From Leucobacter sp. cx-42 (GTDB lineage: Bacteria > Actinomycetota > Actinomycetes > Actinomycetales > Microbacteriaceae): a stretch of DNA of 64,000 nucleotides. The position numbers and the translations under genes are program-made. The stretch is taken from contig NZ_JACVMU010000005.1 of NCBI RefSeq assembly GCF_014529985.1, positions 1-64,000 on the forward strand, given 5' to 3'. The notes under the pieces were generated by a model that did no database searches, was not told the DNA's origin, and was given only the letters and a program-made list of their open reading frames with translations. Positions 27,900-44,963 of the stretch are shown here, one piece after another. Numbering within the stretch: position 1 is the stretch's first letter; each line of letters opens with the position of its first letter.

Positions 27900-27904
27900 G
27901 CTGA

Positions 27905-27914
27905 GCGGAGGGTA
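27905..27914. other. Right attachment site (attR)
   Basis: GCGGAGGGTA at the tRNA-Ser 3' end repeats the left boundary. In tRNA orientation it is followed by TCAGC rather than the CAGTG found at the left. Confidence 0.65.
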
Positions 27915-27993: not shown

Positions 27994-28016
27994 GCGAACG
28001 AGCTTAGCAAAACTTT

Positions 28017-28883: not shown

Positions 28884-28892
28884 AGATTCCTC

Positions 28893-30185
28893 CTACTTGG
28901 TGTCTCCCGAGGTTGCTGCGCCTGCGGTGGGCTCGAGTACTTCGAGGCCACCGAGGTACGGGCGAAGCACCTCAGGAACAGTCACGCTGCCGTCAGCGCG
29001 CTGGTGAGTTTCAAGGATCGCTACGATCCAGCGAGTGGTCGCGAGCGTGCCGTTCAGGGTCGCGACGTGCGCGGTCTTGCCGGTCTCGGTGCGGTAGCGC
29101 GTCGAGAGGCGGCGTGCCTGGTAGCTGGTGCAGTTACTCGTCGAGGTGAGCTCGCGGAACGTGCCCTGGGTCGGAACCCATGCCTCAATGTCGAACTTCC
29201 GAGCCGCGCTCGAGCCGAGGTCGCCAGCGGCAACGTCGATGACCCGGTAGGTGAGGCCGAGCGCCTGCAGCATCTCCTCCTGCAACGCGACGAGGCGGTC
29301 GTGTTCCGTCTCTGCGTCCTTCGGATCGATGTAGACGAACATCTCCAGCTTGTTGAACTGGTGCACGCGCAGGATGCCGCGGGTGTCCTTGCCGTGCGAG
29401 CCAGCCTCGCTGCGGTAGCAGGTCGACCAGCCGGCGTAGCGGAGGGGGCCGCCCTCAAGATCAATGATCTCGTCTGCGTGGTAGCCAGCGAGCGCGACCT
29501 CGCTCGTGCCGGTCAGGTACAGGTCCTGGTTCGGCAGGTGGTAGACCTCGTCAGCGTGCTCACCGAGGAAGCCGGTGCCCTGCATGATCTCGGGCTTCAC
29601 CAGCGTCGGAGTGATGAGCGGCGTGAAGCCGTGCGAGAGTGCACGGTCAAGCGCGAGGTTCATGAGCGCGATCTCGAGGCGAGCGCCCACACCGCGCAGG
29701 AAGTAGAAGCGAGCGCCCGACACCTTTGCGCCGCGCTGCATGTCGATCGCACCGAGCATCTCACCGAGCTCAAGGTGGTCACGGGGCTCGAAATCGAAGG
29801 TGGGAACCTCACCAACGGTGCGGAGCGTCACGAAGTTCTCTTCGCCGCCCTCGGGAACACCGTCGATCACGAGGTTCTCAATTGCCAGTGCCGCCTTCTC
29901 GAAGACCTCAGCGGCCTCCTTCGAGCGGGCATCAGCGGCCTTGACCTTGCCAGCGAATTCCTTCGCCTCGGCAGCAGCGGCAGGCTTGTCTTCCTTTGCT
30001 GCGGTCTTGACCTTGGCACTGACATCTTTCTGAGCAGCGCGGAGGCTCTCAAACTCTGCCAGTGCGGCGCGACGGGCAATATCTGCCTCGATGGCACGAT
30101 CAACCACCGACTCGTCGTTGCCACGCGCTCGCTGGGAGCGCTTAACGGTCTCGGGATCGTTGCGGAGAAGTACGGGATCGATCAC
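28893..30185 (-). CDS. serS: Seryl-tRNA synthetase
   Basis: Encodes 430 aa, the normal length. It charges tRNA-Ser with serine in the cytoplasm. The N-terminal antiparallel coiled coil (about residues 25-105) holds the tRNA long arm. The class II core has motif 2 ([19 protein letters not shown]) and motif 3 ([19 protein letters not shown]). I chose GTG at 30185, giving [15 protein letters not shown], the standard SerRS opening; the longer open frame adds an unlikely tail. It lies near, but is not linked in expression to, the split tRNA-Ser gene. Confidence 0.96.
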
Positions 30186-30253
30186 ACCCCCAAGCTTAGA
30201 GCCTGCAGCCGGGCATCTGCTTGAAAGATGCACAACCTACTACTCTTATAGCC

Positions 30254-31252
30254 ATGTCGAGCGAGCAGAACGAGCCCATCCCTCACGCAGCAGTGGTGTA
30301 TCAGCCGTTCAAAACCGATGTCGACGCGTTGCGGATCGCCGTGTCGATCGCCGAGACCGACGCAGGCTGGGGTCCGACGCAGTGGTACGAGACCGCGAAG
30401 GAAGATGCGGGCACGAGCGCGGCCCAGCGCGCCATCAACGAGGGCGCCGCTGTTGTGCTTGGTGCGGGCGGCGACGGCACGATCCGCGCCCTGGCCGAGG
30501 GAATGCGTGGGACCGGGGTCCCGCTCACGATCGTTCCACAGGGCACCGGCAACCTCCTCGCGCGCAACCTGGGTGCGCCGCTTGATGACATACAGAATGT
30601 CGTGCGGGCGGCATTCCAGGGCGCGGATCGCCCCATCGATCTTGGTGTCCTCAACATCGTCCGGCCGGACGAGTCTGAGGAGGAACATGTCTTCCTCGTG
30701 CTTGCGGGCATGGGTCTCGACGCGCGAACCATCTCGGTGACGAATCCGAAGCTGAAGAAGAAGGTCGGCTGGCTCGCGTATGTGAGCGCCGGTCTGCGCA
30801 CCATGGTCAAGGAGAAGCCGCTCGAGGTGCATTACTCACTCGATCAGGGTGCGGTGAAGTCGCTTCGCGTATTCACGGTGATGATCGGTAACTGCGGCCT
30901 GTTGCCAGGCGGCGTACACCTCATTCCCGACGCAAAGCTCGACGACGGCCTGCTCGATGTCATCGTGTTGAAGCCGCTCGGCCCGTTCAGCTGGTTGAGC
31001 ATCTGGCGCAAGATCGGCCTCGAAAACGGCGTGCTCTCGAAGAGCCGCTTCGGTCGCCGCTTCATCGACCTCGGCCGTGGCCGTCGTGCGGTGACGTATT
31101 CGTTGGCGCGGAAGTACGCGCTGTCGGTTCCGCACCCCGAGCCGGTACAGCTTGACGGTGATGACTTCGGTCTGGCCGTGCAGGTGAGCGGATCGGTTGA
31201 CCCGCGCTCACTCGTGCTGCGTGTTGATCCCGAGTGGGTGCCCGAGGGCTAG
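30254..31252 (+). CDS. Diacylglycerol kinase-family lipid kinase
   Basis: Encodes 332 aa. LGAGGDGTIRALAEG (about residues 72-86) and VPQGTGNLLARNLG (about 97-110) are the nucleotide-binding motifs of the diacylglycerol/sphingosine kinase family. The C-terminal beta-sandwich (YSLARKYALSVPHPEPVQLDGDDFG) carries the family DGE-like site. It would phosphorylate diacylglycerol or a related lipid at the membrane. It diverges from serS and is the last normal chromosomal gene before the RiPP cluster. Confidence 0.9.
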   Translation: MSSEQNEPIPHAAVVYQPFKTDVDALRIAVSIAETDAGWGPTQWYETAKEDAGTSAAQRAINEGAAVVLGAGGDGTIRALAEGMRGTGVPLTIVPQGTGNLLARNLGAPLDDIQNVVRAAFQGADRPIDLGVLNIVRPDESEEEHVFLVLAGMGLDARTISVTNPKLKKKVGWLAYVSAGLRTMVKEKPLEVHYSLDQGAVKSLRVFTVMIGNCGLLPGGVHLIPDAKLDDGLLDVIVLKPLGPFSWLSIWRKIGLENGVLSKSRFGRRFIDLGRGRRAVTYSLARKYALSVPHPEPVQLDGDDFGLAVQVSGSVDPRSLVLRVDPEWVPEG

Positions 31253-31271
31253 GTTACGGAACCGAATCAAG

Positions 31272-31934
31272 CTAAGCACGAAGCCGCATCGACAGCGCTT
31301 CTAAGTCGTGCGTCTGCTCAGAGGACGACGACCCGTCATGAGTGGAAGAACAAGTACTGCAATTATTCACAGGAACAACTGAGAACTCCTCGATGTGGGT
31401 GTAGGCCAAGCCAGCTTTAAACACACGCGGCCAAGAATCAGAATTCCCAGCAGGTTCGAGGTCAGCAGCTCCGTCAAGGTTTTCCAGCGCTCTCGCCAGT
31501 AGTTCTCGCGCCAGCAGGACATGCGAAGGAAGATGGCCGAAGGCTTCCCGAGTAAATCCCATATTGAGCTTCCTTGTTGTCTCAATGAAATCGTCGGTTT
31601 GAGTCAATGCTTTGTGCTGCCACTGTCTTGTATGGAAACACCAGAAGCATCCATCAGTGCCCACCGTGCGAAGGGGACCGACTCGGAGATGCCTCGCTTC
31701 GAGCACAATTGCGCAGTAGGCCCGTCGCGAAGGCACACATGTTTCATTAATAAAACGCTCAGCGTCCAGAATCGAGACTCCACTAATCGGCACAATCACA
31801 CTCTCCCGGCGCCAGGTCTCCGGGAACCAGATTTGTTCCCACAAATGAACCTCGACATTGAAACTGTCTTTGAGAAGCTCTGCCACTTCTTCGCCGAAAC
31901 GGTCTCGCACGAAAACATCAATTCTCATTTTCAC
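31272..31934 (-). CDS. Short E1/F-like partner of the cyclodehydratase
   Basis: Encodes 220 aa from a GTG at 31934 with AGGAG 7 bases upstream; it follows the YcaO gene by 10 bases. The middle reads ARHLRVGPLRTVGTDGCFWC and the tail VPVNNCSTCSS, two Cys pairs like the zinc site of ocin-ThiF/TOMM partner proteins. The conserved phrase LEARHLRVGP is typical of that family. It lacks a recognisable nucleotide-binding half, so it is a short or split version. It probably binds the precursor or YcaO to allow azoline formation. A second protein of this class is fused to a dehydrogenase at 39960. Confidence 0.75.
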   Translation of the reverse strand: MKMRIDVFVRDRFGEEVAELLKDSFNVEVHLWEQIWFPETWRRESVIVPISGVSILDAERFINETCVPSRRAYCAIVLEARHLRVGPLRTVGTDGCFWCFHTRQWQHKALTQTDDFIETTRKLNMGFTREAFGHLPSHVLLARELLARALENLDGAADLEPAGNSDSWPRVFKAGLAYTHIEEFSVVPVNNCSTCSSTHDGSSSSEQTHDLEALSMRLRA

Positions 31935-31944
31935 AAGCGAACTC

Positions 31945-33267
31945 CTATGCAAATGGCTGAGGGTACGGGTTAATTTCCTCATATGGACGTTTCCCGAAAC
32001 CCATACGATCCGGCGCATCGTAGAGGCGTTCATGAGCAAGGAAGCGTGCGGAATGAACGAATGACAGCGGCATCAACTGCGGGACAATAGCCTTCACAAC
32101 ATGTATTCCGGCCGCCTTCGCTTCCCTCGTTGTAATGTCTGCGACCACAACCTCCATTTCGGCTTGCGCCAGACGAGAGAGCACAAATCTCAATTTCTCA
32201 ATCGCAGAAGGAAACTCGTACACGGGTAGATCGTTGAGACGTACCTTCTCCACATCTCTTGTTTCACTCAGAAGGAAATCAAAGACATGAGCTTTCGACT
32301 CATGACCCATGTAGAGCGCTCCGTCGTACACCGTTGTAAACTCATCAGGTTTTTGGGGTGGAGTTTGGTTCCCGCTCAGGCCTAGTTGCGAAGCAGCTAA
32401 TTCCCGAAAGATCTTTAGGATCGATGTACGAGGATTTAGATTCGCATCGCACATCACCACCGTTCGCAGAGACTTACTCCGCTCATTTACTTCGACGCAA
32501 TACACCGTAGGAATTCCTAGATTGGTTGTGGCATCAAAAAAGTGAAGCATTCTGCCTCGTTCACGCGCCTTGTTCAGCGACCGTTCAATTTCTCTGTCCT
32601 GCCCCTCTAAGTCAATCTCCGGAAGCGTAAGACGTTGCAACCAAACCAACGAAATTGCGTCTCGTTCCACCACCTCGAGAATCCCGTTTAGGACTGCGGC
32701 TTCCAAAGTCGAATGCGCTGCAGCTCCCGTAGAGATAGGCAATGTGAAGCATTCATCTGGGGTAAGAGGCGGGACGTTCAGCCAAACCAGCACCGCTGGC
32801 ACCCAAGTTGACACGCCTTTTGTGAACGACCAGGCCTTTGCCCACCGGATTGTTGAGTCGGACTCGTAAGAACGAACTGGGCAGAACACGGATGCCATTT
32901 CGTTGGGCGTGCAGGTAGGAAGCGTTGCCATATCTAGAACATGACCATCCAGCTCATTAGCGGTAGCCCAACGCAAGCCAATCGGAACTGCACAATTTGC
33001 ATGCCTTTCAATTGCTTCCACCGTCGCTATTCCCCTGGCAAGTTCTGAATCGAGCCCGCCTCCAGAACCACCAACATCCAATGACCTCGTGTTGGAAACA
33101 AAGCCGCGCACATTTGTTGTCCCGGCCCCGAGATCACCGAGACTTGCACCAAACACTTGATATGGATAGCCAGTTGGAGAAATTCGGTCAACGCTAGCAA
33201 CGAGTCCTCCTTGCGCTGACACGATCTTGAGTACACGCTCAAAGTCGGTTTGGGTCAAAGGTCTCAA
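31945..33267 (-). CDS. YcaO-domain cyclodehydratase
   Basis: Encodes about 440 aa from a TTG at 33267 that overlaps the permease stop (TTGA); the open frame upstream lies inside the permease gene. It has the YcaO nucleotide-binding pattern with GTTNVRGFVSNT, ARGIATVEAIERHA, and AVLNGILEVVERDAISLVW. It ends in NPYPQPFA, a PxPxP tail known to matter in azoline-forming YcaO enzymes. YcaO proteins use ATP to turn Cys, Ser or Thr of a precursor peptide into thiazoline or oxazoline. Genes on both sides are RiPP export and maturation genes, so its substrate is almost certainly the small precursor at 35651. Confidence 0.92.
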   Translation of the reverse strand: MRPLTQTDFERVLKIVSAQGGLVASVDRISPTGYPYQVFGASLGDLGAGTTNVRGFVSNTRSLDVGGSGGGLDSELARGIATVEAIERHANCAVPIGLRWATANELDGHVLDMATLPTCTPNEMASVFCPVRSYESDSTIRWAKAWSFTKGVSTWVPAVLVWLNVPPLTPDECFTLPISTGAAAHSTLEAAVLNGILEVVERDAISLVWLQRLTLPEIDLEGQDREIERSLNKARERGRMLHFFDATTNLGIPTVYCVEVNERSKSLRTVVMCDANLNPRTSILKIFRELAASQLGLSGNQTPPQKPDEFTTVYDGALYMGHESKAHVFDFLLSETRDVEKVRLNDLPVYEFPSAIEKLRFVLSRLAQAEMEVVVADITTREAKAAGIHVVKAIVPQLMPLSFVHSARFLAHERLYDAPDRMGFGKRPYEEINPYPQPFA

Positions 33268-34295
33268 CGCTCTCGATCGTCCCAAACGAATAGCCGAGCT
33301 GAAAGCATGGCTGCGCAGATCGCAGTTCCACCCATTAGCCCCCAATACAAAGCGAACTGGCCCGGATTCAAAGCCTCGCTTGTCAAATCGGCCGAGGCAA
33401 CTCTCGTGTACCAAGTCGTTGGCAAAGCATTCATGGCCCACGTCAACCAGATCGGCAGCAATTGCGGCGGAAGAACCTGACCTGACGCCAAAATCGCAGT
33501 CACGGGGAGTATCGCGGCTACATTATTCACAGTTTCTGCTCGCCGTGACCGCGCCGCAACCAAATATGCAAGCGCAAAAAACACGGTCAGCCCTAACGTC
33601 ATTGACAGTAGGAGCCGTGGCAGCTGAGTCCCCTGTGCATAGCCAGCAATGGCGGCCACGCCGAAGATGGTTCCAATGACGACCAAGCCATAGATCAGGC
33701 GAATCGGAGTTTGGGCCAGAATAAAGGTCAGCTTGCTCACTGGCGTTGTCCCGAGCAGCCTAAGCGAACCGTTCTCACGCATTCGAGTAAGCGGGACAGA
33801 AGTTCCCATAAATGCGATTGCCATCAGCCCAAGCGCTGACAGCGCAGGCAGATTAGTGCGGAGAAGGTCTATATATGGGTCGCCTAGGTCATCCTGCACT
33901 GTGAGTTTCTCAGCTGGAACACCAATGCTCTCAATCACAGCGATGATTGGAATCCATATCGGTTTTTCTACGCTACTCAGCAAGATAGTCATGTTGCCCT
34001 GTGCTTCTTGCACCGTGACATTGGCTCGGCCGAGGTCTTGCGCTATTTCAATTCCTGCAGCGCGAAACGCGGTCTCAAGTTCAACAGCGCTAGGTACGGT
34101 TTCTCCAATGGCGACAACAGGGTCCACCCGTTTGCTCACATTGATCGTGTAGTTCAAGCCAAGTATTAACAACAAGAAGAACACAAACATGAACAGTATT
34201 GAGAACGAACCTTTTTTGTCTCGATAAAGATCCTTTGCGCTCGCAGTAGCGAGCTCAACAAATGCTGAGCGCGGCGCATAAGCGTTTTTAACCAT
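33264..34295 (-). CDS. ABC-2-type permease of the RiPP exporter
   Basis: Encodes 343 aa. One N-terminal membrane segment (about 33-53), a large outer domain of about 120 residues, and five more membrane segments. This is the ABC-2 permease layout with an extracytoplasmic domain after the first helix. It overlaps the ATPase gene by 8 bases and the YcaO start by 4, so all are translationally coupled. It probably exports the mature peptide and may give self-protection. Confidence 0.85.
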   Translation of the reverse strand: MVKNAYAPRSAFVELATASAKDLYRDKKGSFSILFMFVFFLLLILGLNYTINVSKRVDPVVAIGETVPSAVELETAFRAAGIEIAQDLGRANVTVQEAQGNMTILLSSVEKPIWIPIIAVIESIGVPAEKLTVQDDLGDPYIDLLRTNLPALSALGLMAIAFMGTSVPLTRMRENGSLRLLGTTPVSKLTFILAQTPIRLIYGLVVIGTIFGVAAIAGYAQGTQLPRLLLSMTLGLTVFFALAYLVAARSRRAETVNNVAAILPVTAILASGQVLPPQLLPIWLTWAMNALPTTWYTRVASADLTSEALNPGQFALYWGLMGGTAICAAMLSARLFVWDDRER

Positions 34296-35259
34296 GGTCT
34301 TCCTTAGCGTTGTCGCCCGCAGGTAGGTCTTGAACTATCGAAAGGTAAAAATCTTCAAGGCTTGGAGTTTCAATTCGAAATTTCCTTCCCCGAACCTGAC
34401 TGTCACGAACCAAGCTCTGAAGAAGACCGTCCGGGTCTGCGGACTCAACCTGTACGCTCCAGCTTTCTCCGACATTCTTAGCGCTCACTGAATTCGCGCC
34501 AAAGAGCTCGTACACCTTTGTAAGCGCCTGCCTCGTGGCAACTTCAAAAAGCAATTTAGAATGCGTTTTTGCGCTTTCGATGAGACTTTTTGGTGAACCA
34601 TCCGCTTTGATCTGTCCGTTCACCAGGATCACGACACGATCGCATGCTTGCGCAGCCTCACTCATGTCATGAGTAGACACAAGCACTGTCGTACCTGATT
34701 CGCCAAGCTCCTTAATGAGAGCAACAAGCTGTAGCTTCGCTTCTGGGTCAAGGCCGGCAGAAGGCTCGTCCAAGATCACCAGTTTGGGTTTACCGATGAT
34801 GGCTACGCCAAAGAGCAGTCGACGCCGCTGCCCTCCTGACAAGTTTTCTACTCGGGAGTCTTCCTGGGCGTTTAATCCAATTTTCGCGATCATTTCAAAC
34901 ACATCACAAGGATCTGCATGAAATGAAGCATGAAGCCGGAGCGTTTCACGTACCGTGAGTGCTCCAAATACATTTGCCGTTTGCGGCTGGATGGAGACTA
35001 GCCTTGTCATTAATCGGCGTTCTTCGGAAGGGTTTAGCCCCAACACCTTCACTGACCCTTCAGTGACCTTCCGAAGTCCCGCAACGATTTCCAAAAGCGT
35101 AGATTTGCCTGCACCGTTCGGGCCGAGTACCCCCACCACTGTCTCCTGTTCGATACTGCATTGCAAGCGGTTGAGGACAGTCCGGTCTCCGTAAGTCTTG
35201 ACTAGAGACTCGAGCACGACAGCTGGCGCTATATCTGTCGCAGACATAATGGTTGTCAT
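34288..35259 (-). CDS. ABC transporter ATPase of the RiPP exporter
   Basis: Encodes 323 aa from the ATG at 35259 with GAGGAG 6 bases upstream. It has Walker A GPNGAGKST (about 51), signature LSGGQRRR (about 142), Walker B LVILDEPSAGLD and a switch His in VSTHDMS. The C-terminal extension past residue 230 resembles drug- and bacteriocin-export ATPases. It is the first gene of a four-gene minus-strand operon that diverges from the precursor gene. Confidence 0.92.
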   Translation of the reverse strand: MTTIMSATDIAPAVVLESLVKTYGDRTVLNRLQCSIEQETVVGVLGPNGAGKSTLLEIVAGLRKVTEGSVKVLGLNPSEERRLMTRLVSIQPQTANVFGALTVRETLRLHASFHADPCDVFEMIAKIGLNAQEDSRVENLSGGQRRRLLFGVAIIGKPKLVILDEPSAGLDPEAKLQLVALIKELGESGTTVLVSTHDMSEAAQACDRVVILVNGQIKADGSPKSLIESAKTHSKLLFEVATRQALTKVYELFGANSVSAKNVGESWSVQVESADPDGLLQSLVRDSQVRGRKFRIETPSLEDFYLSIVQDLPAGDNAKEDHG

Positions 35260-35650
35260 GCCAACTCCTCACATTTTCGGACGCGTTTAGGCATTCGGGT
35301 CATGCCAGTTGGACCAATAGAGAAACCCAACTGACTCTGACTTCAACGTAGGTATTACAGAGTCTCGGCAGCAATCGGTTGGTGCGCGTTGTTCTCTCAT
35401 TGCCGAAAACTGACGATAGAGGCAACCAGCTCACTGATTGGTTCTTACAGGTGTAAGGTCGACGGCCGCTATGACGAGATGTGTACGTGTTTCGCGACAG
35501 AGCGCTGCATAAATCGATTTGCCATTGAATTTTCGGGGCCCAGAAATTAGCTTCTAAAAACGGTCATCGCTTCCACCTAATTGATGTCCGGATCATCTGC
35601 GGCGTTGATGCTAATTCAATGCTTCGGCGAATAGTTTAAGGAGTCAAATC
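35260..35650. promoter_or_regulatory. Divergent promoter region of the RiPP cluster
   Basis: 391 bases without a supported gene, AT-richer than the chromosome. It separates the exporter/YcaO operon from the precursor operon, so both promoters must lie here or within the exporter gene. Scattered TTGGTT/AACCAG words occur, but no clear paired operator or regulator gene was found nearby. Confidence 0.5.
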
Positions 35651-35809
35651 ATGACTGAAAATGAGTTGGTATCGGTTGAAGAGCTGTCTATCGAAGATCT
35701 CCCCAACACCGTGTCTCCCGGGGTTAGCAGTGCGGGTACGTTCTCCACATTCTCATGCGCCACAGGCTCAGCTGCAACAGGAAGCTGCCTGAGTACCTGG
35801 CGGGCATGA
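35651..35809 (+). CDS. Precursor peptide of an azole/dehydroamino-acid RiPP
   Basis: Encodes 52 aa, too short for usual gene callers. AAGGAG lies 7 bases before the ATG. The leader is acidic (ENELVSVEELSIEDLPN), a typical recognition sequence for RRE-bearing enzymes. The C-terminal part TFSTFSCATGSAATGSCLST, then WRA, has two Cys and many Ser/Thr, ready for thiazoles, oxazoles and dehydroalanines. It resembles the goadsporin core as I remember it (a T-x-S-T-x-x-C start and a late Gly/Ser-Cys). The cleavage point is unknown, perhaps near VSSAG. The WRA end is unusual and could be trimmed. The M50 protease gene follows after 56 bases. Confidence 0.85.
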   Translation: MTENELVSVEELSIEDLPNTVSPGVSSAGTFSTFSCATGSAATGSCLSTWRA

Positions 35810-35865
35810 TTCAATATCTTTCGCGAAGGCCCCGATAGACCGACTTCGACTTGCAATCTTGCCCA

Positions 35866-36930
35866 ATGAAATGGATCGAGGTGCCTTTTCTTCAACTGAA
35901 GACCGGTATTGAGATCATTGTTGGTGCTGAAGGACGTCTCTACATAGAGGTGCCAGGCGAAACCTATCTTTCCCTGAGCAAGCCCAGTATCGGCCTTTTG
36001 GAGATACTTAAAGACGGTGTCAGCGGTCAAGAACTCTTTAACCGTTTTGGCGTGTTAGAGGTAAGTAGCGAGGGAAAGAGACTCGCAGATCTACTTGAGA
36101 TTCTGCAAGACTATTCGTTGCTCAACCTTTCCCCTAATGATGAACGTCTGCGAAGGCGTCAAAAGGTCCATACCACTCTAGGGCTTGATTTCTTCAAGCG
36201 GATTCCCATCCGTAATGCACATTTTCTCGCGCGATTTGGGCAATCCGCTTCCGATGTCCCGCGCGTCTATTTGTGGGTCTGCATTTGTGTTTTGGCCGTT
36301 GCCACTTTCTTCGCTTGCGCAAACGTCTCACCGCCAGCTGCTCCGCCGCAAGTTCAGCAGCTCCTAGTAATCGCCCCCTTGCTACTACTCCAATTGGCAA
36401 TTCATGAAGCATTCCACGCATTCGCCATGGGGTACTTCGGACTCCCTGTGACAGACGTAGGCATTGGCCTGATGTTCTACGTCATACCAACAGGGTACGT
36501 AGATCGGTCGGCAGCGGTCCTCCTCCCTTCCAGAGCAGATAGAGCGCTAGTTTCTGCGGCCGGGCCGGCAGTGGATCTCGTGGCACTGACTGTGGTTGGA
36601 GCCACGAGGGAGTTCAGTAATGAACCATGGGTCGCCCTTTGGACTTGGCTTCAGATATTCCAGTTAGGAGCATTGGCAGTGAACCTCAACCCACTTTCAC
36701 GCAGCGATGGGTATTACATGTTAGAAGCCTTGACAGGCCATACAAACCTCAGAACGCACGCGCTAAGACTCATCTTCCATGACATAACTAGAATTCCTCC
36801 GCCAAATTATCTAGTTGGTGTCAGTAAACAGCGACATTTCGCGTACTACCTCTACGTCGTTTCAATTCTGCTCTACGCCGCCTTCAGCTTCACTCTCGTT
36901 ATCACGGCGGTGTTATATGCCAGCGGCTAA
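35866..36930 (+). CDS. M50-family membrane protease of the RiPP cluster
   Basis: Encodes 354 aa from the ATG at 35866; a TTG at 35851 would add five residues, and neither has a clear ribosome site. The first 90 residues resemble a PqqD/RRE-like winged helix (YIEVPGETYLSLSKPSIGLL). Several membrane segments follow, with LAIHEAFHAFAMGYFG (HExxH, about residue 183) and NPLSRSDGYYMLEALTG, the second M50 motif with its metal-binding Asp. Such peptide-linked zinc proteases occur in RiPP clusters. Its likely role is leader removal or precursor-linked export. It overlaps the next gene by 14 bases. Confidence 0.82.
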   Translation: MKWIEVPFLQLKTGIEIIVGAEGRLYIEVPGETYLSLSKPSIGLLEILKDGVSGQELFNRFGVLEVSSEGKRLADLLEILQDYSLLNLSPNDERLRRRQKVHTTLGLDFFKRIPIRNAHFLARFGQSASDVPRVYLWVCICVLAVATFFACANVSPPAAPPQVQQLLVIAPLLLLQLAIHEAFHAFAMGYFGLPVTDVGIGLMFYVIPTGYVDRSAAVLLPSRADRALVSAAGPAVDLVALTVVGATREFSNEPWVALWTWLQIFQLGALAVNLNPLSRSDGYYMLEALTGHTNLRTHALRLIFHDITRIPPPNYLVGVSKQRHFAYYLYVVSILLYAAFSFTLVITAVLYASG

Positions 36931-39232
36931 GCCTGCACTAGGTCCCACCGTCATGAGGAAAGCCTCGTTGCCGCTGAACGCCTTGGACTTCGTCCAAGCC
37001 GAAACAGTCCAATCCCTTGATGATGTAGCTGCAGCAGAGGAGTCCCTCTTGGCGTCCAGCTCGACTTTGTCCTCTCGGATATTCTCGGTTGTCCCAGGGA
37101 GCAACCCTCAAGTTCGTCGTGAGTTGCTCTCTCTCCGCCGCAAGACAAAGAGTCGTTTCAGCCCCTCCACCAGTGAGATCGAAACTGCCACACGCACGGG
37201 CCTGCGATCGGTCCTTGAGAGTTTCTTGCGCGACCTTAATAGATGGAATGCGTCTACTGAAGCTCTATCGCGTGCAATCAGGAAAGATGAGCAAGAGGTC
37301 CGGTCGTCGCTTATCCGCTCGTTAAGGTCTTCATCCGTAAGCGACGCATTGGCTGTCACCTCCGACAGTTTCGCATGCAAATTACAATTCGCGCCGCTCC
37401 GCCCAGGGCAGAGTTCTACTCGCTCAGCGATCAACTACGTAGTTCGCGCAACCTTGAAACCCACACCGCTTTCAAGCTTCGCCCACGCTTCATACCCAGG
37501 TGCAAAGCTTGGAAAGCGGACCCAACTTGCGCCGCACGTAGACACAGCGTTGATTTCTGCTCTTGTAGAACGATTCGGTGCATCTTTATGCCCAGCTTTG
37601 TCCGTCATACGTCACAAGAAACTGAATTCTCAGCTCTTTGGACTCACGGAATCAGTATCCGCACAATCCTCGCTAATCACAACCAGCCTCAAGAACATCA
37701 CCTGTCATGAAGCGGAGGTCATGTCATACGTATCCAATCAGGCGGCAAGCGATATGCTCAGCGATTTCAGAATTAGAAGGCTCTTCGAAGCGGGTCTCCT
37801 CAGAACCAGTTTCAAACAGCTAACAGGTCATTTGACTCATTTAGACAAAAATACTCGGGCGGATGTAGAAGAGATCATTCGCATGAGAAATATAGTGCAC
37901 GTGACCGCAAGGAAGCTTTCCACCTTCACCGGCTTTCGGAAGAAAGCTGAGCTTTCTTTGATACGGAATCAGATTGGTTCACTCTTCCAAAAACTAGCGT
38001 TCCCAGCACCACGTGGCCCGTTTATTCACGAATCAAGCGTCATCGAATGGCGCCCCTCGAAGTCCGGGAAAGATTCAGCGGTCGCTACAAGCCTTGTAGC
38101 GGTCGCGAAGGAGCTGGGAAAACAAGTCTTTCTCTCCAGTGCATACGAGCTTCTGGCTAAACGGCTGCAAGGCTACGGCGGGCGATTGAATCTAGAGGCT
38201 TTCCTCTGGGCGACTTTGGCTGACCAAACCTTCATGCGCCAGTTACACCAAGCATGGGCATCGAACAGCGTTGGGCGCCCGATGCATCAAGTGCAAATTA
38301 GCGGCAGCGTGCCCTCACCCGCAGCAATCCTCAGTTACCAGCATTCGAGTAGCAGCAACGTACTCATCCTGAACAATGTTTTCCCAGCCGACTACGGTCT
38401 ACTTGCGAGGTATTACATCGACTCTGACAAAGCCAACAGGGATGCGCTTTCAAAAGCTCGCACGGAACTAACCGCATTCTCAGAACAGCAATTCTCAACA
38501 GGCGTGACCGTGTTGTCATTTCTTCCAATTGCGAATTCTTCGCCGCTTCACGCCTCTATGCCAACGCCTTCGAATTGTTTCACTTTATGCTCTTCCACTC
38601 ATGAGAATGGCCAGTTGACCGCCAGTGACCTGTTCATACACTGGGATGCATTCTCAAACACCATCCAGCTGTCCAGATCCGACCATTCAAAAATCGGAAT
38701 CTCTTATTGGGGTGTAACGCCGCAATGGACGCATGACGACCTAACAAGGGTTCTGCTCAGCATTGCTAACCCTTGGGCGAACTACCACCCTGCCGCGCTT
38801 AGGGGGAACCCTCTCATCCGCACAACCCAGTCGATGGGAGTTCATGGTTCTTCACACCCGCGTCAGACTCTCGGAAACATTGTGCTTCGTAGACGCTCAT
38901 GGACATTGAATCTCTCAGATTTTCCAGACCTCGGAGGTCACGAAACAAACGTAAGCCAGCTTCTAGCCGTAGAAAAATGGCGCGTTCGCCATCAGCTACC
39001 CACCGAAGCCTTCGTCTATCTGCCTACGAAGAGTCTGTCCGATCTTGGCCAGCACAAACCATTTTGGGTCTCGCTGCGGTCTCTTTACTCAATCCATCAC
39101 TTCTGTCAGATGGTTCGCAATGTTTCAGACGTCTGGTTTGAAGAGGTCTTGCCAGAAAGAGGGAAAGGATCTACACGTTATACGGAAGAACGACTCACTC
39201 TGATTCAAATTGCTAGGGCGGAGACCAATTGA
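36917..39232 (+). CDS. LanB-type dehydratase, glutamylation protein
   Basis: Encodes 771 aa from the ATG at 36917, inside the end of the M50 gene; an ATG at 36953 is also possible. Its length and N-terminus (RKASLPLNALDF) fit the stand-alone glutamylation half of split LanB dehydratases, which uses glutamyl-tRNA to activate Ser/Thr side chains of the precursor. YVVRATLKPTPLSSFAHASY is a recognisable Lant_dehydr_N stretch. The elimination half is the next gene, coupled by a TTGA overlap. Split LanB proteins are known from thiopeptide and goadsporin clusters. Confidence 0.85.
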   Translation: MPAAKPALGPTVMRKASLPLNALDFVQAETVQSLDDVAAAEESLLASSSTLSSRIFSVVPGSNPQVRRELLSLRRKTKSRFSPSTSEIETATRTGLRSVLESFLRDLNRWNASTEALSRAIRKDEQEVRSSLIRSLRSSSVSDALAVTSDSFACKLQFAPLRPGQSSTRSAINYVVRATLKPTPLSSFAHASYPGAKLGKRTQLAPHVDTALISALVERFGASLCPALSVIRHKKLNSQLFGLTESVSAQSSLITTSLKNITCHEAEVMSYVSNQAASDMLSDFRIRRLFEAGLLRTSFKQLTGHLTHLDKNTRADVEEIIRMRNIVHVTARKLSTFTGFRKKAELSLIRNQIGSLFQKLAFPAPRGPFIHESSVIEWRPSKSGKDSAVATSLVAVAKELGKQVFLSSAYELLAKRLQGYGGRLNLEAFLWATLADQTFMRQLHQAWASNSVGRPMHQVQISGSVPSPAAILSYQHSSSSNVLILNNVFPADYGLLARYYIDSDKANRDALSKARTELTAFSEQQFSTGVTVLSFLPIANSSPLHASMPTPSNCFTLCSSTHENGQLTASDLFIHWDAFSNTIQLSRSDHSKIGISYWGVTPQWTHDDLTRVLLSIANPWANYHPAALRGNPLIRTTQSMGVHGSSHPRQTLGNIVLRRRSWTLNLSDFPDLGGHETNVSQLLAVEKWRVRHQLPTEAFVYLPTKSLSDLGQHKPFWVSLRSLYSIHHFCQMVRNVSDVWFEEVLPERGKGSTRYTEERLTLIQIARAETN

Positions 39233-39963
39233 GCTGGCTCTTCCTAAAGATCTACCCTGCGTCCCCTTCAGAGTTGTCTTCACTATTAGGAGTTCTAGGT
39301 CCCCTAGTCCTGGCCCACATTAGAAATCCAAATCTACAGATCACGAGATGGTTTTTCTTACGGTACGCGGACTTCGACGGGGTTCATCTACGGTTCCGGT
39401 TCAGTTCTTCAGATTTAAGAAGCCTTGATAACTTGTATCGCCTACTCAAATCTGATTGCGCCAGGCTAGGCGCGTCAGCCCAATCAGACGTGTATGAGCG
39501 AGAAGTCTCTAAGTGGAGTTCGACATACATAGATTCCGCTGAAAAGGCGTTCCAGAGCACAAGCATGGCCGTATTGCAGCTACTTTCTATGCCTAAAGCA
39601 GAATCTCTCCGGCAAAAACAACTCATGTTGCGCGCCTACTTCGAAGCGACAAAGTTCGCTTGGTCACCTACCAACGAGATCTGGCAAGGCTTCTGCCAAA
39701 CCCATCAAGAGTGGTGGGGCGCACGCAATCCTCTTCCTGTTGTTGGGAAAACGCCAGCATTCTTCTCGCAGCAAGCGGCAACGTCCTGGATTCCGCACGC
39801 TGTGATGCTCTCACAATTAGAAGATGTCCTCCCCAGACCACCGAGTTACTACTTCCATCATCATCTCCACCTCATTGCAAACCGGCTAGGGCTAATTCCA
39901 ATTGAAGAGGCTGCCGTCGCTTTCTCCGCAAGACACAGAACTCCCAAGGAGGGAGCCAAATGA
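39229..39963 (+). CDS. LanB-type elimination (SpaB_C) protein
   Basis: Encodes 244 aa from a TTG at 39229. WFFLRYADFDGVHLRFRF (about residues 42-59), YEREVSKW and HHHLHLIANRLG near the C-terminus are SpaB_C marks; they include the Arg and His residues needed to remove glutamate and leave Dha/Dhb. Pyridine synthases of thiopeptides share the fold, but usually diverge at the HxxxNR motif, which is kept here. It is the only SpaB_C protein in the cluster, so I favour elimination and a linear product. It overlaps the fusion gene by ATGA. Confidence 0.83.
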   Translation: MSWLFLKIYPASPSELSSLLGVLGPLVLAHIRNPNLQITRWFFLRYADFDGVHLRFRFSSSDLRSLDNLYRLLKSDCARLGASAQSDVYEREVSKWSSTYIDSAEKAFQSTSMAVLQLLSMPKAESLRQKQLMLRAYFEATKFAWSPTNEIWQGFCQTHQEWWGARNPLPVVGKTPAFFSQQAATSWIPHAVMLSQLEDVLPRPPSYYFHHHLHLIANRLGLIPIEEAAVAFSARHRTPKEGAK

Positions 39964-41558
39964 ATTCAGTACCGTCCGCTGCGGTCTCATCGCAAGAAGA
40001 CCCGCAAATGCAGTTACCGACTTTCCCAGCAATTTGCCCCGGGTTGCCGACGACCTGTGTGGACAATACGCTGGTAGTTGACGGCTTGCTCTCACGACGT
40101 TCCATCAGTGGAGAGATCATCCGCTCTTTAGGTTCCAAGGTCTTCAGTGTGTTAGACGGCGCCACACACATCGCGGAGCTCCCGAAGCTACTCAATCTGA
40201 GCGCTGCCTCGTGTCACGAATTCCTCTTCCAGCTTTTCACTGCGGGTTTACTCCTCGACGGCGAACTCGGGGAGTGGGAAAGCGACCCACTGCTGAGCTT
40301 TCTACACCGAGCCACCGATCAAACGCGGAAGAACAGTTCTGGAACAATTGGCCTTTCGAACCTCACAAACGCAAAGATCGCGATCCTCAGCCAAGATCCC
40401 ACGCTCAAAGCAACGCTCGAGAACAGGCTAGTTTCTGGCTATGGGGTGTCGATCGTCCACAATTGGGTCGCTGTCACTCGCGTTGATCTACTGGTGATGC
40501 TCCTCACCAATAGTTCGGCTAAGGACTCGAATTGGAATGATGCCATTCGCGACGCACATGAACAAGGGATTCCGATCCTCCCGGTGCATTTCGGTAATAG
40601 TGAGGCGTTGATCGGACCGTCATCGTCGTTTGACTATGGTCCTTGCCCAATGTGCGGCGGACACACATGGGACTATTCATTTCCTAGTGAAAAGTACCAG
40701 CCCCTCCTACTCGGGCTGGTCGAGCAGCAAATCTCACTTCTGGTCGCCGGCGTTGGAGCCGCGCAAAGTGAAAACAACGGAATTCATATTCACGGTTCAC
40801 CGTTCAAGACTGATGCCGTCGTTGCCGTTCCGGAGCCCGGGTGCACCATCTGCCAAGTTGCTCCTTCCACAGCGAGCAACCCTATTTGGAGCTATATTTT
40901 CGAGTCGAGCGTTGCTATTCCACCAGCTCGTGCCCGACGCCCGCGGGGGCATCAAAAGCACTATGAGCCGAGTAACGCTTTACTCCAAGTGGAGCAGCGA
41001 ACCCCTGTCCATGGCTCCCCCGAAGTACTGCTTCCTCATCATTTGATTCGAGATGTGCATCTTTTCAAAGGTCTAAACGTGGACTCTCTTGCGATCCTCT
41101 TGGAATACTCGTTCGGGATCAATCGAACTCGGTCGTCAGCCGAGAACGCTATCCGCAGATGGGCTCCAAGCGGCGGGAATCTTGGCTCGCCCCAGGCATA
41201 TCTCCGAGTTGCAGGCTTTCAAGATTTGCCTAATGGAAGGTACTTCTATAACGCTCTGAACCATTCTCTTGTCCCGATCATGGACACCAACAGTTGCGGC
41301 TCAACTGAGCTAGAGATCCTCATATCGGGAGAAATTTCCAGGACCTGGAAAAAATACGGAAACTTCGGCTATCGAATAGTGCATTTCGATACAGGTATCG
41401 CAATTAGCCATCTCACAACGATCGCTAGCGCTTTCGGGCTTGCCGTGAAGAACGCCCAGGCATGGGAAGATCAGCATCTTGCTGACGAGTACGCACTCGA
41501 TAGGAACTCTCAGGTTGTTACTGCACAGATGGACTTCAGAGAGGACCCCAAAGAATGA
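39960..41558 (+). CDS. RRE/E1-like and SagB-type dehydrogenase fusion
   Basis: Encodes 532 aa. Residues about 20-110 look like an RRE winged helix (CVDNTLVVDGLLSRRS, VFSVLDGATHIAELPKLL). Residues about 120-290 are a reduced ocin-ThiF-like part with zinc-type pairs GPCPMCG and PGCTICQ. Residues about 360-520 match SagB-type FMN dehydrogenases (RRWAPSGGNLGSPQAYLRV, TWKKYGNFGYRIVHFDTG with the Lys-Tyr pair). It should bind the leader and oxidise azolines to azoles. This fusion type is known from goadsporin-like clusters. Both neighbours overlap it by ATGA. Confidence 0.85.
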   Translation: MNSVPSAAVSSQEDPQMQLPTFPAICPGLPTTCVDNTLVVDGLLSRRSISGEIIRSLGSKVFSVLDGATHIAELPKLLNLSAASCHEFLFQLFTAGLLLDGELGEWESDPLLSFLHRATDQTRKNSSGTIGLSNLTNAKIAILSQDPTLKATLENRLVSGYGVSIVHNWVAVTRVDLLVMLLTNSSAKDSNWNDAIRDAHEQGIPILPVHFGNSEALIGPSSSFDYGPCPMCGGHTWDYSFPSEKYQPLLLGLVEQQISLLVAGVGAAQSENNGIHIHGSPFKTDAVVAVPEPGCTICQVAPSTASNPIWSYIFESSVAIPPARARRPRGHQKHYEPSNALLQVEQRTPVHGSPEVLLPHHLIRDVHLFKGLNVDSLAILLEYSFGINRTRSSAENAIRRWAPSGGNLGSPQAYLRVAGFQDLPNGRYFYNALNHSLVPIMDTNSCGSTELEILISGEISRTWKKYGNFGYRIVHFDTGIAISHLTTIASAFGLAVKNAQAWEDQHLADEYALDRNSQVVTAQMDFREDPKE

Positions 41559-42232
41559 AGACATCGCTAGACCTATATCTGGGGCTCTCTGCTTCAGTTG
41601 AAGCTGCTTCCTTGGAAATCGTAGATCTACTTCAGCGCCAGCCCTCAACCGATGCTGCCGGTAATAGCGCGTCCGGCTTTCAACTAAGTGCTCTGCAAAG
41701 CCGTCGAGCAGTCAAACGTTTCACCACTAGTACGATAAAGCAGAGCCTGCTCACGACCATTTCGCAACGGGTCCAACAGCTCGACCAAAACCTATGGCCC
41801 CGACAGGCAATAGAAGTTCCACTTCAAAGCTTTGTGATTGCGCGGAACGTTGAAAATGCAAGTCCGGGAATCTATAAGATCGATGTATCAGGACTCGAAT
41901 TGGCAACAGAGCACCGTAGCATTGACGTCCAAGAGTTCGTGTTGCAGCCGGAATTTGCAAGTGCTGCCGCGATTGTATTCCTCATTGGCTCTTTAAAGTC
42001 CGCGCACGAACTAGACGGAGATCATGGCTACCGGCTGTTGCTTGAGCGGTCTGGGGCTGCTGCGGAGGTTGCGTGGATGTCCGCGGTCGAAAACGGCGTT
42101 TCTGGCTCAATATTTGCGGGTTTAGTTCCGTCTACACTCAAACAGCTACTGGGTGTTGACGGATTCAAACGCGTCCAAACTATCGCGATCGCGATCGGCT
42201 ACCCAACAGAGGAACGCTCCGCAGCGACGTAA
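41555..42232 (+). CDS. Second nitroreductase-like dehydrogenase
   Basis: Encodes 225 aa, starting within the stop of the fusion gene. SRRAVKRFTTSTI (about residues 49-61) and AAEVAWMSAVENGVSGSIF (about 171-189) are nitroreductase/SagB-like, but no Lys-Tyr pair like that of the fusion is clear. It may form a heterodimer with the SagB domain or act on a second residue class. It ends the plus-strand operon, 14 bases before the convergent pheA stop. Confidence 0.78.
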   Translation: MKTSLDLYLGLSASVEAASLEIVDLLQRQPSTDAAGNSASGFQLSALQSRRAVKRFTTSTIKQSLLTTISQRVQQLDQNLWPRQAIEVPLQSFVIARNVENASPGIYKIDVSGLELATEHRSIDVQEFVLQPEFASAAAIVFLIGSLKSAHELDGDHGYRLLLERSGAAAEVAWMSAVENGVSGSIFAGLVPSTLKQLLGVDGFKRVQTIAIAIGYPTEERSAAT

Positions 42233-42246
42233 ACAATGTGTTGATT

Positions 42247-43200
42247 CTACGCGCGTGACCCGTCGACGACGTCGCTCAGCCAGTCGCGAGCCTCGCGGAA
42301 CGAGTCATCGCTGTGCCCTGCGGCGTATGACGCCGACAGGCGGTCTGCGCGCGGGTACGAGCCGAGGAATACGACTCGGGGGCTGAAACGCTTCACGCCG
42401 AGGATCGCGTCTGCGACGCGCTCGTCCTTCACGTGGCCCTCTGCGTCGATGACGAAGCGGTAGCGGCCCATGCGGTCGCCGATGGGGCGTGAGGCGAGCA
42501 GGGTGAGGTTGATGCCGCGGGTCGCGAACTGCTCGAGCAGCAGCAGCAGGGCACCCGACTTGTCTTCGGGCAGCTCGACGATGAGCGAGGTTTTGTCGGT
42601 GCCGGTCGGCTCTGCGACAGGCAGCACGCTGCTGACGAGCACAAAGCGGGTCTGCGCGTCGGGGTTCTCAGCGAGACCAGACGCGAGCACCTCAACGTCG
42701 TAATGGTCTTCGATGCCGGGCGGTGCGATCGCCGCGTCAATATCGGCGTTCGATTCAAAGAGGTCGACAACCGCCTGCACGTTCGAGGGCGCGGGGATGT
42801 GCTGGTGTGCAGGCACGTGCTCATCGAGCCATGCGCGGCACTGCCCGTAGGCGACGGGGTGGCCGCTCACGACGCGCACGTCTTCGAGCTTCGTGCCGGG
42901 TCGCACGACGAGCACGAAGTTCACCGAGACGAGGTACTCGCCGATGATGCGCAGGCCCGGGATGGTTGCGAGCGCGTCTTGTGCAACGGTGACGCCACCG
43001 TCGATCGAATTCTCGATCGCGATCATCGCTGCGTCGCTCTCGCCGCTCACGACGTCTTGCAGTGCCTCACCGAGGTTGGCGACCGGGTTCCAGTTCTGGC
43101 CGACCGCTTCTGGCACCTGCTTGAGGGCAGCCTCGGTAAACGTGCCGGCCGGACCGAGGTACGAGTAACGACGGAGGGGCACAGCGTTGTTCGAGGACAT
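42247..43200 (-). CDS. pheA: Prephenate dehydratase
   Basis: Encodes 317 aa. It converts prephenate to phenylpyruvate in phenylalanine synthesis. The periplasmic-binding-like catalytic part starts YLGPAGTFTEAAL and has the Thr-rich ESDAAMIAIENSIDG loop. The C-terminal ACT domain (SLIVELPEDKSGALLLLLEQFA and SRPIGDRMGRYRF) senses phenylalanine. I chose ATG at 43200 (MSSNNAVP), as upstream residues read into the pgm gene end. It lies 10 bases after pgm on the same strand. Confidence 0.94.
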   Translation of the reverse strand: MSSNNAVPLRRYSYLGPAGTFTEAALKQVPEAVGQNWNPVANLGEALQDVVSGESDAAMIAIENSIDGGVTVAQDALATIPGLRIIGEYLVSVNFVLVVRPGTKLEDVRVVSGHPVAYGQCRAWLDEHVPAHQHIPAPSNVQAVVDLFESNADIDAAIAPPGIEDHYDVEVLASGLAENPDAQTRFVLVSSVLPVAEPTGTDKTSLIVELPEDKSGALLLLLEQFATRGINLTLLASRPIGDRMGRYRFVIDAEGHVKDERVADAILGVKRFSPRVVFLGSYPRADRLSASYAAGHSDDSFREARDWLSDVVDGSRA

Positions 43201-43210
43201 GCTCACCAGC

Positions 43211-44845
43211 TTATTCCCCCAGCACGCGACCCACGAGTGCCTGCGCCGCCTGCTGCACCTCAGCGAGGTGTTCCGCGCCGCGGAACGACTCTGCATAAAT
43301 CTTCATGACGTCTTCGGTACCCGACGGCCGCGCGGCAAACCAGGCGTGCTCGGTCTGCACCTTCAAACCACCAATACCCGCGCCGTTGCCCGGCGCTTCG
43401 GTGAGCACAGCGACAATCGGGTCCCCCGCGAGCTCGGTGGCGGTGACGTCGTCGGCACTCAGAGCGGCGAGCTTCGCCTTCTGCGCAGGCGTCGCCGCAG
43501 CGTCGATGCGAGCGTAGGCGGGAGCACCGAAGCGCGTTTCAAGCGCCGCGTAATGCTCTGACGGCGACTTGCCAGACACCGCAAGAATCTCGGCCGCGAG
43601 CAGCGCGAGCAGGATCCCGTCCTTGTCAGTGCTCCAGGGGGTGCCGTCGAAGCGTAGGAACGATGCGCCAGCGCTCTCTTCGCCACCGAAGACGACCGTA
43701 CCGTCTGACAGCCCAGGAACGAACCACTTGAAGCCGACGGGTACCTCGAGCAGCTGACGCTCGTGTGCCGCGACGACGCGGTCGATCATCGCAGACGACA
43801 CCAGGGTCTTACCGATGCCGGCGGCGGTCGACCACTCGGGACGGTGCCCAAGCAGGTAGTCAATCGAGACTGCGAGGAAGTGGTTCGGGTTCATGAGGCC
43901 AGCGTCACGGGTCACAATGCCGTGGCGATCGGCGTCAGCGTCGTTACCGGTCACGATTGCGTAGTCGTTGCGGAACGCCTCCACCGTCGACATGACGTGC
44001 GCCGACGAGGGATCCATACGAATCTTGCCGTCCCAGTCGAGGTGCAGGAAAGCCCACTGCGGGTCAACGCCTGGGCCAAGCACGGTGAGGTTCAGGTCGT
44101 ACCGTTCAGCAATCGCGCCCCAGTATGCCTGGCTCGCGCCGCCGAGCGGGTGCGCGGCAATCGCAATGCCAGCATCGCGGATCGCAGCCATGTTGATCGC
44201 CTCGCCGAGGCTCTCGACGTACGCGCCGAGGTAGTCGTAGGTCGACACCGCGTCAGCGTCGCCGCGCGTGATGTCAGTGCCTGCTTCGAGGAGTTCATTC
44301 GCTCGCCCCGCGATCCACCCGGTGGCGTCGGTGTCTGCCGGGCCGCCGTGGGGCGGGTTGTATTTGAAGCCACCGTCAGCTGGCGGGTTGTGGCTGGGCG
44401 TCACGACAATGCCGTCAGCGCGCGCGGGATCGTCGGCCGCGAGGTCGCGGTTGTGGGTGAGGATCGCGTGGCTGAGCGCCGGGGTCGGGACGAACGTCGC
44501 GTCCCCCTCGCCAGCGGGAACAATCACGTGCACACCAGCAGCGACGAGCACCTCGCGCGCGGTCGTCTCGGCGACCGCCGAGAGGGCGTGCGTGTCAGCT
44601 CCGATGTAGAGCGGACCGGTGATGCCCTGCTCAGCGCGATACTCGGCAATCGCGAGGCTGATCGCCGCGATGTGCGCCTCATTGAACGACGCCTTCAGCG
44701 CCGAGCCGCGGTGGCCAGAGGTGCCAAACGCGACGCGCTGCGTCGCCACAGCGGGGTCGGGCACCACATCAAAGTACGCAGCTCGCAGCGCCTCAACGTC
44801 GATGAGGTCTTCTGCGATGGGCGCTTCGCCAGCTCGTGCATGCAT
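43211..44845 (-). CDS. pgm: Phosphoglucomutase (alpha-D-glucose specific)
   Basis: Encodes 544 aa, normal for the Pgm family. It interconverts glucose 1-phosphate and glucose 6-phosphate. AFGTSGHRGSAL carries the phosphorylated Ser (about residue 43), VTGNDADADRHG the metal-binding DxDxDR, and VFGGEESAGASF the sugar loop. It begins with MHARAGEAP at 44845; a plausible operon with pheA follows. No sign of damage. Confidence 0.95.
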   Translation of the reverse strand: MHARAGEAPIAEDLIDVEALRAAYFDVVPDPAVATQRVAFGTSGHRGSALKASFNEAHIAAISLAIAEYRAEQGITGPLYIGADTHALSAVAETTAREVLVAAGVHVIVPAGEGDATFVPTPALSHAILTHNRDLAADDPARADGIVVTPSHNPPADGGFKYNPPHGGPADTDATGWIAGRANELLEAGTDITRGDADAVSTYDYLGAYVESLGEAINMAAIRDAGIAIAAHPLGGASQAYWGAIAERYDLNLTVLGPGVDPQWAFLHLDWDGKIRMDPSSAHVMSTVEAFRNDYAIVTGNDADADRHGIVTRDAGLMNPNHFLAVSIDYLLGHRPEWSTAAGIGKTLVSSAMIDRVVAAHERQLLEVPVGFKWFVPGLSDGTVVFGGEESAGASFLRFDGTPWSTDKDGILLALLAAEILAVSGKSPSEHYAALETRFGAPAYARIDAAATPAQKAKLAALSADDVTATELAGDPIVAVLTEAPGNGAGIGGLKVQTEHAWFAARPSGTEDVMKIYAESFRGAEHLAEVQQAAQALVGRVLGE

Positions 44846-44963
44846 GGCTTAAGTCTGCCAGCCGCCGCTGACATCACGGTTCAGACGACTCGGCGAGGCG
44901 AACACAGGCCTGAACGCGTCCGTGTTTGCCAACCGTTCACCTTTCCGGCGTAATGTAAACACT

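Follow-up and report, generated by a model that had tools for sequence, protein, structure and literature searches.

The first 64,000 nucleotides of contig NZ_JACVMU010000005.1 of Leucobacter sp. cx-42 (hereafter the window) contain, between dagK and pheA, a gene cluster for a putative ribosomally synthesized and post-translationally modified peptide (RiPP). Nine protein genes and a precursor gene are located within 31272-42232, and all ten frames are open. They form two divergent groups: the leftward one comprises the ABC ATPase, the ABC permease, YcaO and the E1-like C protein, while the rightward one comprises the precursor, the M50 protease, the LanB N-part, SpaB_C, a fusion protein and a nitroreductase-like protein. 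The gene classes named in a first-pass annotation (ABC exporter, YcaO, split LanB, M50 protease and precursor) are borne out by the open frames and family matches. That annotation also counted two E1-like partners and two dehydrogenase-like proteins; the domains are indeed present, but one of each belongs to the same polypeptide, the fusion at 39960-41558. The features are as follows:

31252..42246, no strand: acquired insert between dagK and pheA, nearly all of it occupied by the cluster (stop-to-stop).
31272..32039, minus strand: C protein, E1-like cyclodehydratase partner (TIGR03882, 24.6 bits, under the cut-off of 36.9).
31945..33441, minus strand: D protein, YcaO azoline-forming cyclodehydratase (TIGR03604, 294.7 bits, cut-off 219).
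33264..34295, minus strand: ABC-2 exporter permease (PF12698 and PF01061, above cut-off).
34288..35259, minus strand: ABC exporter ATPase, DrrA-like (PF00005, 98.4 bits; best NCBIfam match TIGR01188, under cut-off).
35260..35650, no strand: intergenic stretch separating the two divergent gene groups, no gene assigned.
35651..35809, plus strand: precursor peptide of 52 residues (NF033482, 34.4 bits, cut-off 25), core GV[SSA][GTF][STF][SCA]T[GSA][ATG][SCL][STW]RA.
35866..36930, plus strand: predicted leader peptidase, an M50 metalloprotease of the intramembrane type that carries an RRE-like domain at its N-terminus (PF02163, 31.7 bits, cut-off 27.2).
36917..39232, plus strand: LanB N-part, predicted tRNA-Glu-dependent Ser/Thr glutamylation enzyme (PF04738, 29.9 bits, cut-off 28).
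39229..39963, plus strand: SpaB_C, predicted glutamate-elimination enzyme, TTG start (PF14028, 88.6 bits, cut-off 24.4).
39960..41558, plus strand: fusion of an RRE-like leader-binding domain, an E1-like domain and a SagB azoline dehydrogenase (TIGR03605, 79.2 bits at the C-end, cut-off 78.4).
41555..42232, plus strand: second nitroreductase-like protein, possible dehydrogenase partner (PF00881, 27.8 bits, cut-off 23.5).

Related loci were collected by whole-genome searches and one contig scan, and their genes were detected by profiles built from the window genes. The contig scan was run with an alignment of the fusion protein, of which the best 80 of 91 loci were retained; with the fusion protein as a single sequence it found no relative. 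The sampling comprises 80 named loci plus others, and 84 were analysed. YcaO, C, fusion, nitroreductase, M50, LanB N-part and SpaB_C are all present in 53 of the 84, that is, the window and 52 others, which are called full loci below. Note that locus L031 duplicates L066; it was left out of the 70-locus comparison and the tree, and counted in the triplet, [4+2]-profile, HxxxNR and seven-enzyme tallies. The tree also excludes L032, L091 and L113, and the out-of-frame row L037 of alignment A4 was ignored.

The C protein, whose likely start at ATG 31928 gives MRIDVFVRDRFG, resembling the relatives' MRELHIITLGDFG, has two CxxC pairs (CFWC and CSTC) that are kept in 53/53 full loci, and it matches the E1 part of the fusion with an hhalign probability of 99. 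The YcaO protein, the sole YcaO match in the genome search, probably starts near 33260, the longest frame running into the permease gene; it ends in PYPQPFA, and a PxPxP end occurs in 34/53 full loci. No peptidase domain was detected in the exporter ATPase and permease by domain and NCBIfam searches. The longest frame of the M50 protease begins at TTG 35851 and that of the LanB N-part at TTG 36815. The best NCBIfam match of the protease is daptide_HExxH (90 bits, under the cut-off of 300), and the motifs HEAFH and NPLSRSDG are found in 53/53 and 51/53 full loci, respectively. Its AlphaFold2 (AF2) model has a mean predicted local distance difference test (pLDDT) of 86.4, with SpoIVFB as the top fold match (E 4.5e-3). 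Since hhalign relates the N-terminal domain of the protease to the fusion's RRE-like domain with a probability of 95.6, the two may recognise one and the same leader. The family profile of the fusion matches the structures of TruD, LynD and MusD in its N-part and those of CyaGox and McbC in its C-part, and K465-Y466 is unchanged across 10 aligned sequences.

The insert has unusually clear borders. In the sister species G1060 (locus L116) the site holds about 25 bp, compared with 10,995 bp in the window, and the G1060 flanks match 27885-31251 at 95.0% and 42247-47983 at 91.1% identity; between the two hosts, pheA is 99% and dagK 97% identical. The insert is AT-richer than its surroundings, as first described, with a GC content of 51.7%, the two flanks having 64.0% and 63.1%. 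That it separates genes which are usually close also holds: for the 48 other genus members whose dagK and pheA lie on the same contig, the spacing between the two is below 500 bp in 32, 1.5-3.5 kb in 15 and 10 kb in one. This distribution indicates that the site is tight in most genus members, yet accepts other DNA too. Based on the empty site and the GC contrast, the whole cluster appears to have been gained by horizontal transfer, in line with the early suggestion. No gene beyond the cluster's own, and no integrase gene, was recognised in 31252..42246, and its outer 300 bases share no common exact repeat of at least 9 bases, direct or inverted. With such a border, the ten genes are a reasonable guess at the set sufficient for production.

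It could be supposed that the cluster is decayed or silent and yields no product, which we consider unlikely. This is recently gained DNA with a GC content unlike that of the host, and a domain search of the nine proteins found no regulator; several genes have TTG or GTG starts, and among the ten starts examined no ribosome site is evident at four, namely those of M50, LanB, YcaO and C. Against this, ten frames are open, the HExxH, HxxxNR, PxPxP, paired CxxC and fusion K-Y motifs are all retained, and ribosome sites lie ahead of the other six starts, the precursor's among them.

Two further observations concern DNA near or at this site. The window also carries, at 2113-27912, a 25.8 kb element of 52.1% GC that is not in the sister species and ends at tRNA-Ser(tga); it encodes a tyrosine integrase (26222-27742), a second integrase-like protein (7421-8449) and a type IIG restriction-methyltransferase (2272-5118). 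In another genus member (G1042, L117), the dagK-pheA gap is filled by about 10 kb (3335-13182), which includes a sigma-factor-like gene and another for a repetitive, surface-protein-like product of 2472 residues.

The precursor gene was the only match in a genome-wide search for such precursors. Because it is preceded by an AAGGAG ribosome site and its product scores above the NF033482 cut-off, we rejected the possibility that it is a chance open reading frame. The core consists of eight triplets with a central Ser, Thr or Cys and a third residue other than these, four on either side of a spacer (4+1+4); five of the triplets begin with Ser, and both core Cys sit at triplet centres. Seven or more triplets are found in 185 of the 194 precursors from M50 loci (95%), as against 9.5% of shuffled cores, and in 0/17 precursors from M50-free loci. 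When the rule is made stricter, the eight-triplet parse of the window recurs in 0.04-0.12% of shuffles, varying with the stretch taken. Of the 187 precursors from loci that have both M50 and LanB, 134 pass the strict two-sided parse; the layout is 5+1+4 in 89 of these and 4+1+4 in 8. The pattern recurs in over 50 related loci, most of them from actinobacteria. In the 1155 triplets of the strictly parsed cores of the family, the first residue is S, G, T or A in 1095, and the third is acidic in one.

These position rules agree with goadsporin biochemistry as given in part of PMC5303826: GodD/E require X1-(S/T/C)-X2, where X1 may not be E, R, Y or W and X2 may not be acidic, and the dehydroalanine (Dha) sites S4 and S14 depend on azoles at T5 and S15. 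Applying the two goadsporin rules, that of X1-(S/T/C)-X2 and that of Dha before an azole, to the window core gives eight azole and five Dha sites; the product would thus carry eight azoles and up to five Dha. With a loss of 20.03 Da for each azole and 18.01 Da for each Dha, the calculated [M+H]+ of the fully modified peptide ending in RA is 2364.888 if the core begins at SSA, 2463.956 if it begins at VSSA and 2520.977 if it begins at GVSSA. If this is true, the azole and Dha positions of a mostly undescribed peptide family become predictable from DNA and can be checked by mass.

Could the cluster then be a true goadsporin homologue that targets the signal recognition particle? The first-pass annotation had called it goadsporin-like. 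The likeness stands for the LanB N-part, whose best match among solved structures by sequence is 9jhq, 'Goadsporin biosynthetic protein' (E 9.2e-22, followed by 6ec7 with E 2.9e-7), and for the core logic. Goadsporin of Streptomyces sp. TP-A0584 is likewise a linear chain with azoles and Dha, made with a split LanB on X1-(S/T/C)-X2, with Dha only before an azole (PMC5303826, cited in part). Membership in the strict sense does not stand, the gene set being that of a wider M50-containing family. Goadsporin has a GodB peptidase-ABC and a GodH acetyltransferase (same part of PMC5303826), equivalents of which are not among the insert's nine proteins, and a fused cyclodehydratase (according to part of PMC4603692), whereas the C and D genes are separate in the window. 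The search for a GNAT N-acetyltransferase covered the nine proteins of the insert, not the rest of the genome, and found none. The window in turn has the M50 protease and the RRE-E1-SagB fusion, unlike goadsporin. In addition, we take GodI to be an extra SRP54-type immunity gene of the goadsporin cluster. A genome-wide search found only two SRP54-family matches, adjacent on one contig, and we infer from their size and adjacency that they are the normal ffh and ftsY; a GodI-like copy is therefore not indicated, and a goadsporin-like target is unsupported. With equivalents of the GodD-type fusion, GodB, GodH and GodI not found, a goadsporin homologue in the strict sense was rejected as improbable.

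The next question is whether the product is linear or macrocyclic. A thiopeptide would have a pyridine macrocycle joining the Ser of an SC motif to a Ser ten residues on. In its favor, the precursor matches NF033482, a model that bears a thiopeptide name ('thiocillin family RiPP'), and YcaO, C, fusion and nitroreductase are common to berninamycin-type loci. However, NF033482 also matched six other precursors tested, every one from an M50 locus, and therefore cannot separate the linear from the thiopeptide kind. The genome contains only one PF14028 (SpaB_C) protein and no match to the pyridine-synthase model NF045556; low scores on that model mean little, since it gives 28-38 bits to three of four elimination-type proteins tested outside this branch. 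As the first annotation had noted, the single SpaB_C keeps the HxxxNR motif (HLIANR in the window), which is present in 69/69 related SpaB_C proteins, the window included and one locus counted twice. A [4+2] profile was built from three pyridine-synthase-like proteins. It has a match in each of the 14 distinct loci that carry LanB and lack M50, the three seeds lying within these 14, and matches neither the window SpaB_C nor any of the 62 M50 loci. The AF2 model of SpaB_C (pLDDT 85.6) has NisB, MibB and MadB at fold ranks 1-8, with template modelling (TM) scores of 0.60-0.71, followed by two [4+2]-type enzymes with 0.50 and 0.58, one of them TsrL, which we take to be of the [4+2] type. The protein at 39229-39963, whose placement among pyridine synthases had been named as the finding that would speak against a linear product, thus groups with the elimination domains by motif, profile and predicted fold. 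Among 70 LanB loci, M50 is present in 56 and the pyridine synthase in 14, and there is none with both or with neither. On the strict triplet rule, the 17 precursors of loci without M50 score at most 3, while that of the window scores 8.

With one SpaB_C of the predicted elimination type and no pyridine-synthase match, the product is probably linear, as was initially proposed, and a thiopeptide was rejected as very improbable in view of the same evidence and the triplet core. A class I lanthipeptide, with cysteines closing Dha into thioether rings, was rejected as scarcely credible: the split LanB and two core Cys would suit it, but no LanC-like protein is among the nine (a genome-wide LanC search was not made), the cluster includes YcaO and SagB, and the two Cys sit at triplet centres, which are azole sites under the goadsporin rule.

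Taken together, the window probably contains a complete, horizontally acquired cluster for one linear RiPP with azoles and Dha. Its chemical steps and export are proposed from the protein families; the cleavage site and bioactivity are likewise inferred. The RRE-like domain of the fusion would bind the 52-residue precursor via its leader, and YcaO with its E1-like partner would cyclise the central Ser, Thr or Cys of the eight triplets. Oxidation of the rings to azoles would fall to the SagB domain of the fusion, possibly helped by the second nitroreductase. The split LanB would then glutamylate each Ser directly preceding an azole, and SpaB_C would eliminate glutamate to leave Dha. As no pyridine synthase would act, the chain would remain open; the M50 membrane protease would take off the leader and the ABC transporter would export the peptide. 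The exporter is also the only obvious candidate for self-protection.

More tentatively, and as something we regard as possible rather than probable, the M50 family as a whole may follow a three-residue code combined with a switch at the release step. An M50 protease with a leader-binding domain would give linear peptides, leader expulsion through pyridine-ring closure by a [4+2] enzyme would give thiopeptides in the sister lineage, and exchange of the two modules would have been the evolutionary switch from one kind to the other; the window would be a compact, single-precursor 4+1+4 form that arrived whole. The question of linear azole peptides versus thiopeptides would then reduce to one module, protease or pyridine synthase. 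If the code is true, DNA sequence would give the structures of nearly two hundred cores, read as a small residue, an azole-forming Ser, Thr or Cys and a free side chain, with five triplets, one spacer and four triplets as the commonest layout and a first-position Ser read as Dha.

It should be noted that several results weigh against these proposals. Nine of the 194 precursors of M50 loci have fewer than seven triplets, the strict two-sided parse fails for 53 of the 187 precursors from loci with M50 and LanB, and the looser rule is weak for the window by itself (p about 0.02). With the azole positions T2, T5, C8 and S15 named in PMC5303826, the goadsporin core can be divided manually into triplets on either side of a single extra residue; the script parse of this core differs and misplaces C8. 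The 14 pyridine-synthase loci form one clade, and therefore the mutual exclusion of M50 and pyridine synthase may reflect a single evolutionary event. A second cluster of Streptomyces sp. CWH03 (L124 and L125, outside the 70) has a LanB and a SagB protein, three YcaO matches, one match of the M50 type and a frame similar to SpaB_C. That frame scores with both kinds of model, at 93.5 bits for pyridine synthase (cut-off 325) and 90.9 for elimination (TIGR03891), and our own [4+2] profile does not match it; the cluster may be an exception to the rule of M50 versus [4+2]. The fold search with the M50 protease yielded no match at E 0.001 or better, and the RRE-like reading of its N-terminal domain is based on a single profile comparison and those fold matches. 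The second nitroreductase lacks the catalytic K-Y pair in an 8-sequence alignment, so its role is a guess. Six Actinoplanes loci (L046, L047, L052, L057, L060 and L105) have M50, as well as YcaO, C, fusion and nitroreductase, and no LanB within the fetched stretch; the precursors matched in such loci consist of repeats that are rich in Cys and Gly, also contain His or Arg and call microcin B17 to mind.

Loci of Planobispora, Planomonospora, Streptosporangium and Curtobacterium, among others, hold clustered orthologues of every one of the nine proteins, and the seven-enzyme loci include Streptomyces, Actinomyces, Nesterenkonia, Paeniglutamicibacter, Patulibacter and two Bacillus loci. In a sample of the family Microbacteriaceae, SpaB_C has a match in 4 of 398 genomes. 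One of the four is the window's own, and the remaining three have a full M50 cluster (L122, L123 and G255, taken as L063); there is no match in the nine further genomes of the same genus in that listing. The statement that no product of this kind has been described from Microbacteriaceae agrees with the literature search, which found none, though homologous clusters occur in at least four other genomes of the family (L036, L063, L122 and L123). No description of an M50-containing azole/Dha family was found either, which is no proof that none exists, nor any paper combining linear azole peptides, M50, YcaO and dehydroalanine. The number of precursors per locus averages 3.3 over the 56 loci with M50 and LanB; 16 have one, including the window and Curtobacterium. 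Support is poor deep in the tree, with 0.315 above the node of the window and Curtobacterium pair.

Some side observations on these relatives can be added. The M50-LanB-YcaO cluster occurs in Bacillus too, in Bacillus atrophaeus (L088), where five precursors parse into triplets, and in Bacillus sp. N13C7 (L089). An 8.6 kb contig of a Corynebacterium metagenome-assembled genome (L055) has YcaO, C, fusion and nitroreductase, and no precursor, M50 or LanB was found on it.

Among known systems, berninamycin-type loci (L066, L075, L058, L078 and others; we assign the product name to L066-type loci from the core) have homologous YcaO, C, fusion, second nitroreductase and split LanB. They differ in having a pyridine-synthase-like protein and no M50, and in cores such as SCTTTSVSTSSSSSSS (L066), which are off the triplet pattern. 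As a side observation, the L066 thiopeptide locus (12510-16491) adjoins an elongation factor Tu gene and apparent genes for EF-G and a small ribosomal protein. In the dehydrazoles (carnazolamide), Ser is likewise dehydrated only ahead of an azole, but by a LanM-type DUF4135 enzyme on a proteusin-like leader (according to part of PMC10676384), and no DUF4135 match is present among the nine proteins. M50 proteases cut or release other RiPPs, e.g. epipeptides and pearlins (PMC10885120, cited in part).

The nearest relative is the locus of Curtobacterium sp. HSID17257 (L036), the sister of the window in the tree (support 1.0). It has the same gene set, a 4+1+4 core and a single precursor 52% identical to that of the window. 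It differs in that its fusion is 32% identical, its GC content of 69% is like that of its surroundings and the exporter-YcaO-C half is not inverted; a tRNA-Ser(cga) is located about 330 bases upstream.

Linear peptides with azoles and Dha made via YcaO and split LanB are already known, namely goadsporin and the spongiicolazolicins (according to part of PMC10676384). Spongiicolazolicins A and B are peptides of 29 and 28 residues produced by Streptomyces sp. CWH03 (cited part of PMC8838263), and the Dha-azole-X tripeptide blocks of nostatin have been likened to spongiicolazolicins and goadsporin (cited part of PMC11583998). Locus L076 of CWH03 has the D-C-fusion-nitroreductase-M50-LanB-SpaB_C set of the window and four precursors with the same triplet parse, three of them exactly 28 residues from first triplet to end. 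The window differs in its single precursor, its gene order and its 4+1+4 core, which lacks the SCP motif. It is likely, though not proved, that L076 makes spongiicolazolicins; the assignment is not firm because of the second YcaO/LanB cluster on another CWH03 contig, in which no convincing triplet precursor was found. We therefore regard the window cluster as a new variant within a known kind, and if the CWH03 link is true, it is a new member of the spongiicolazolicin kind.

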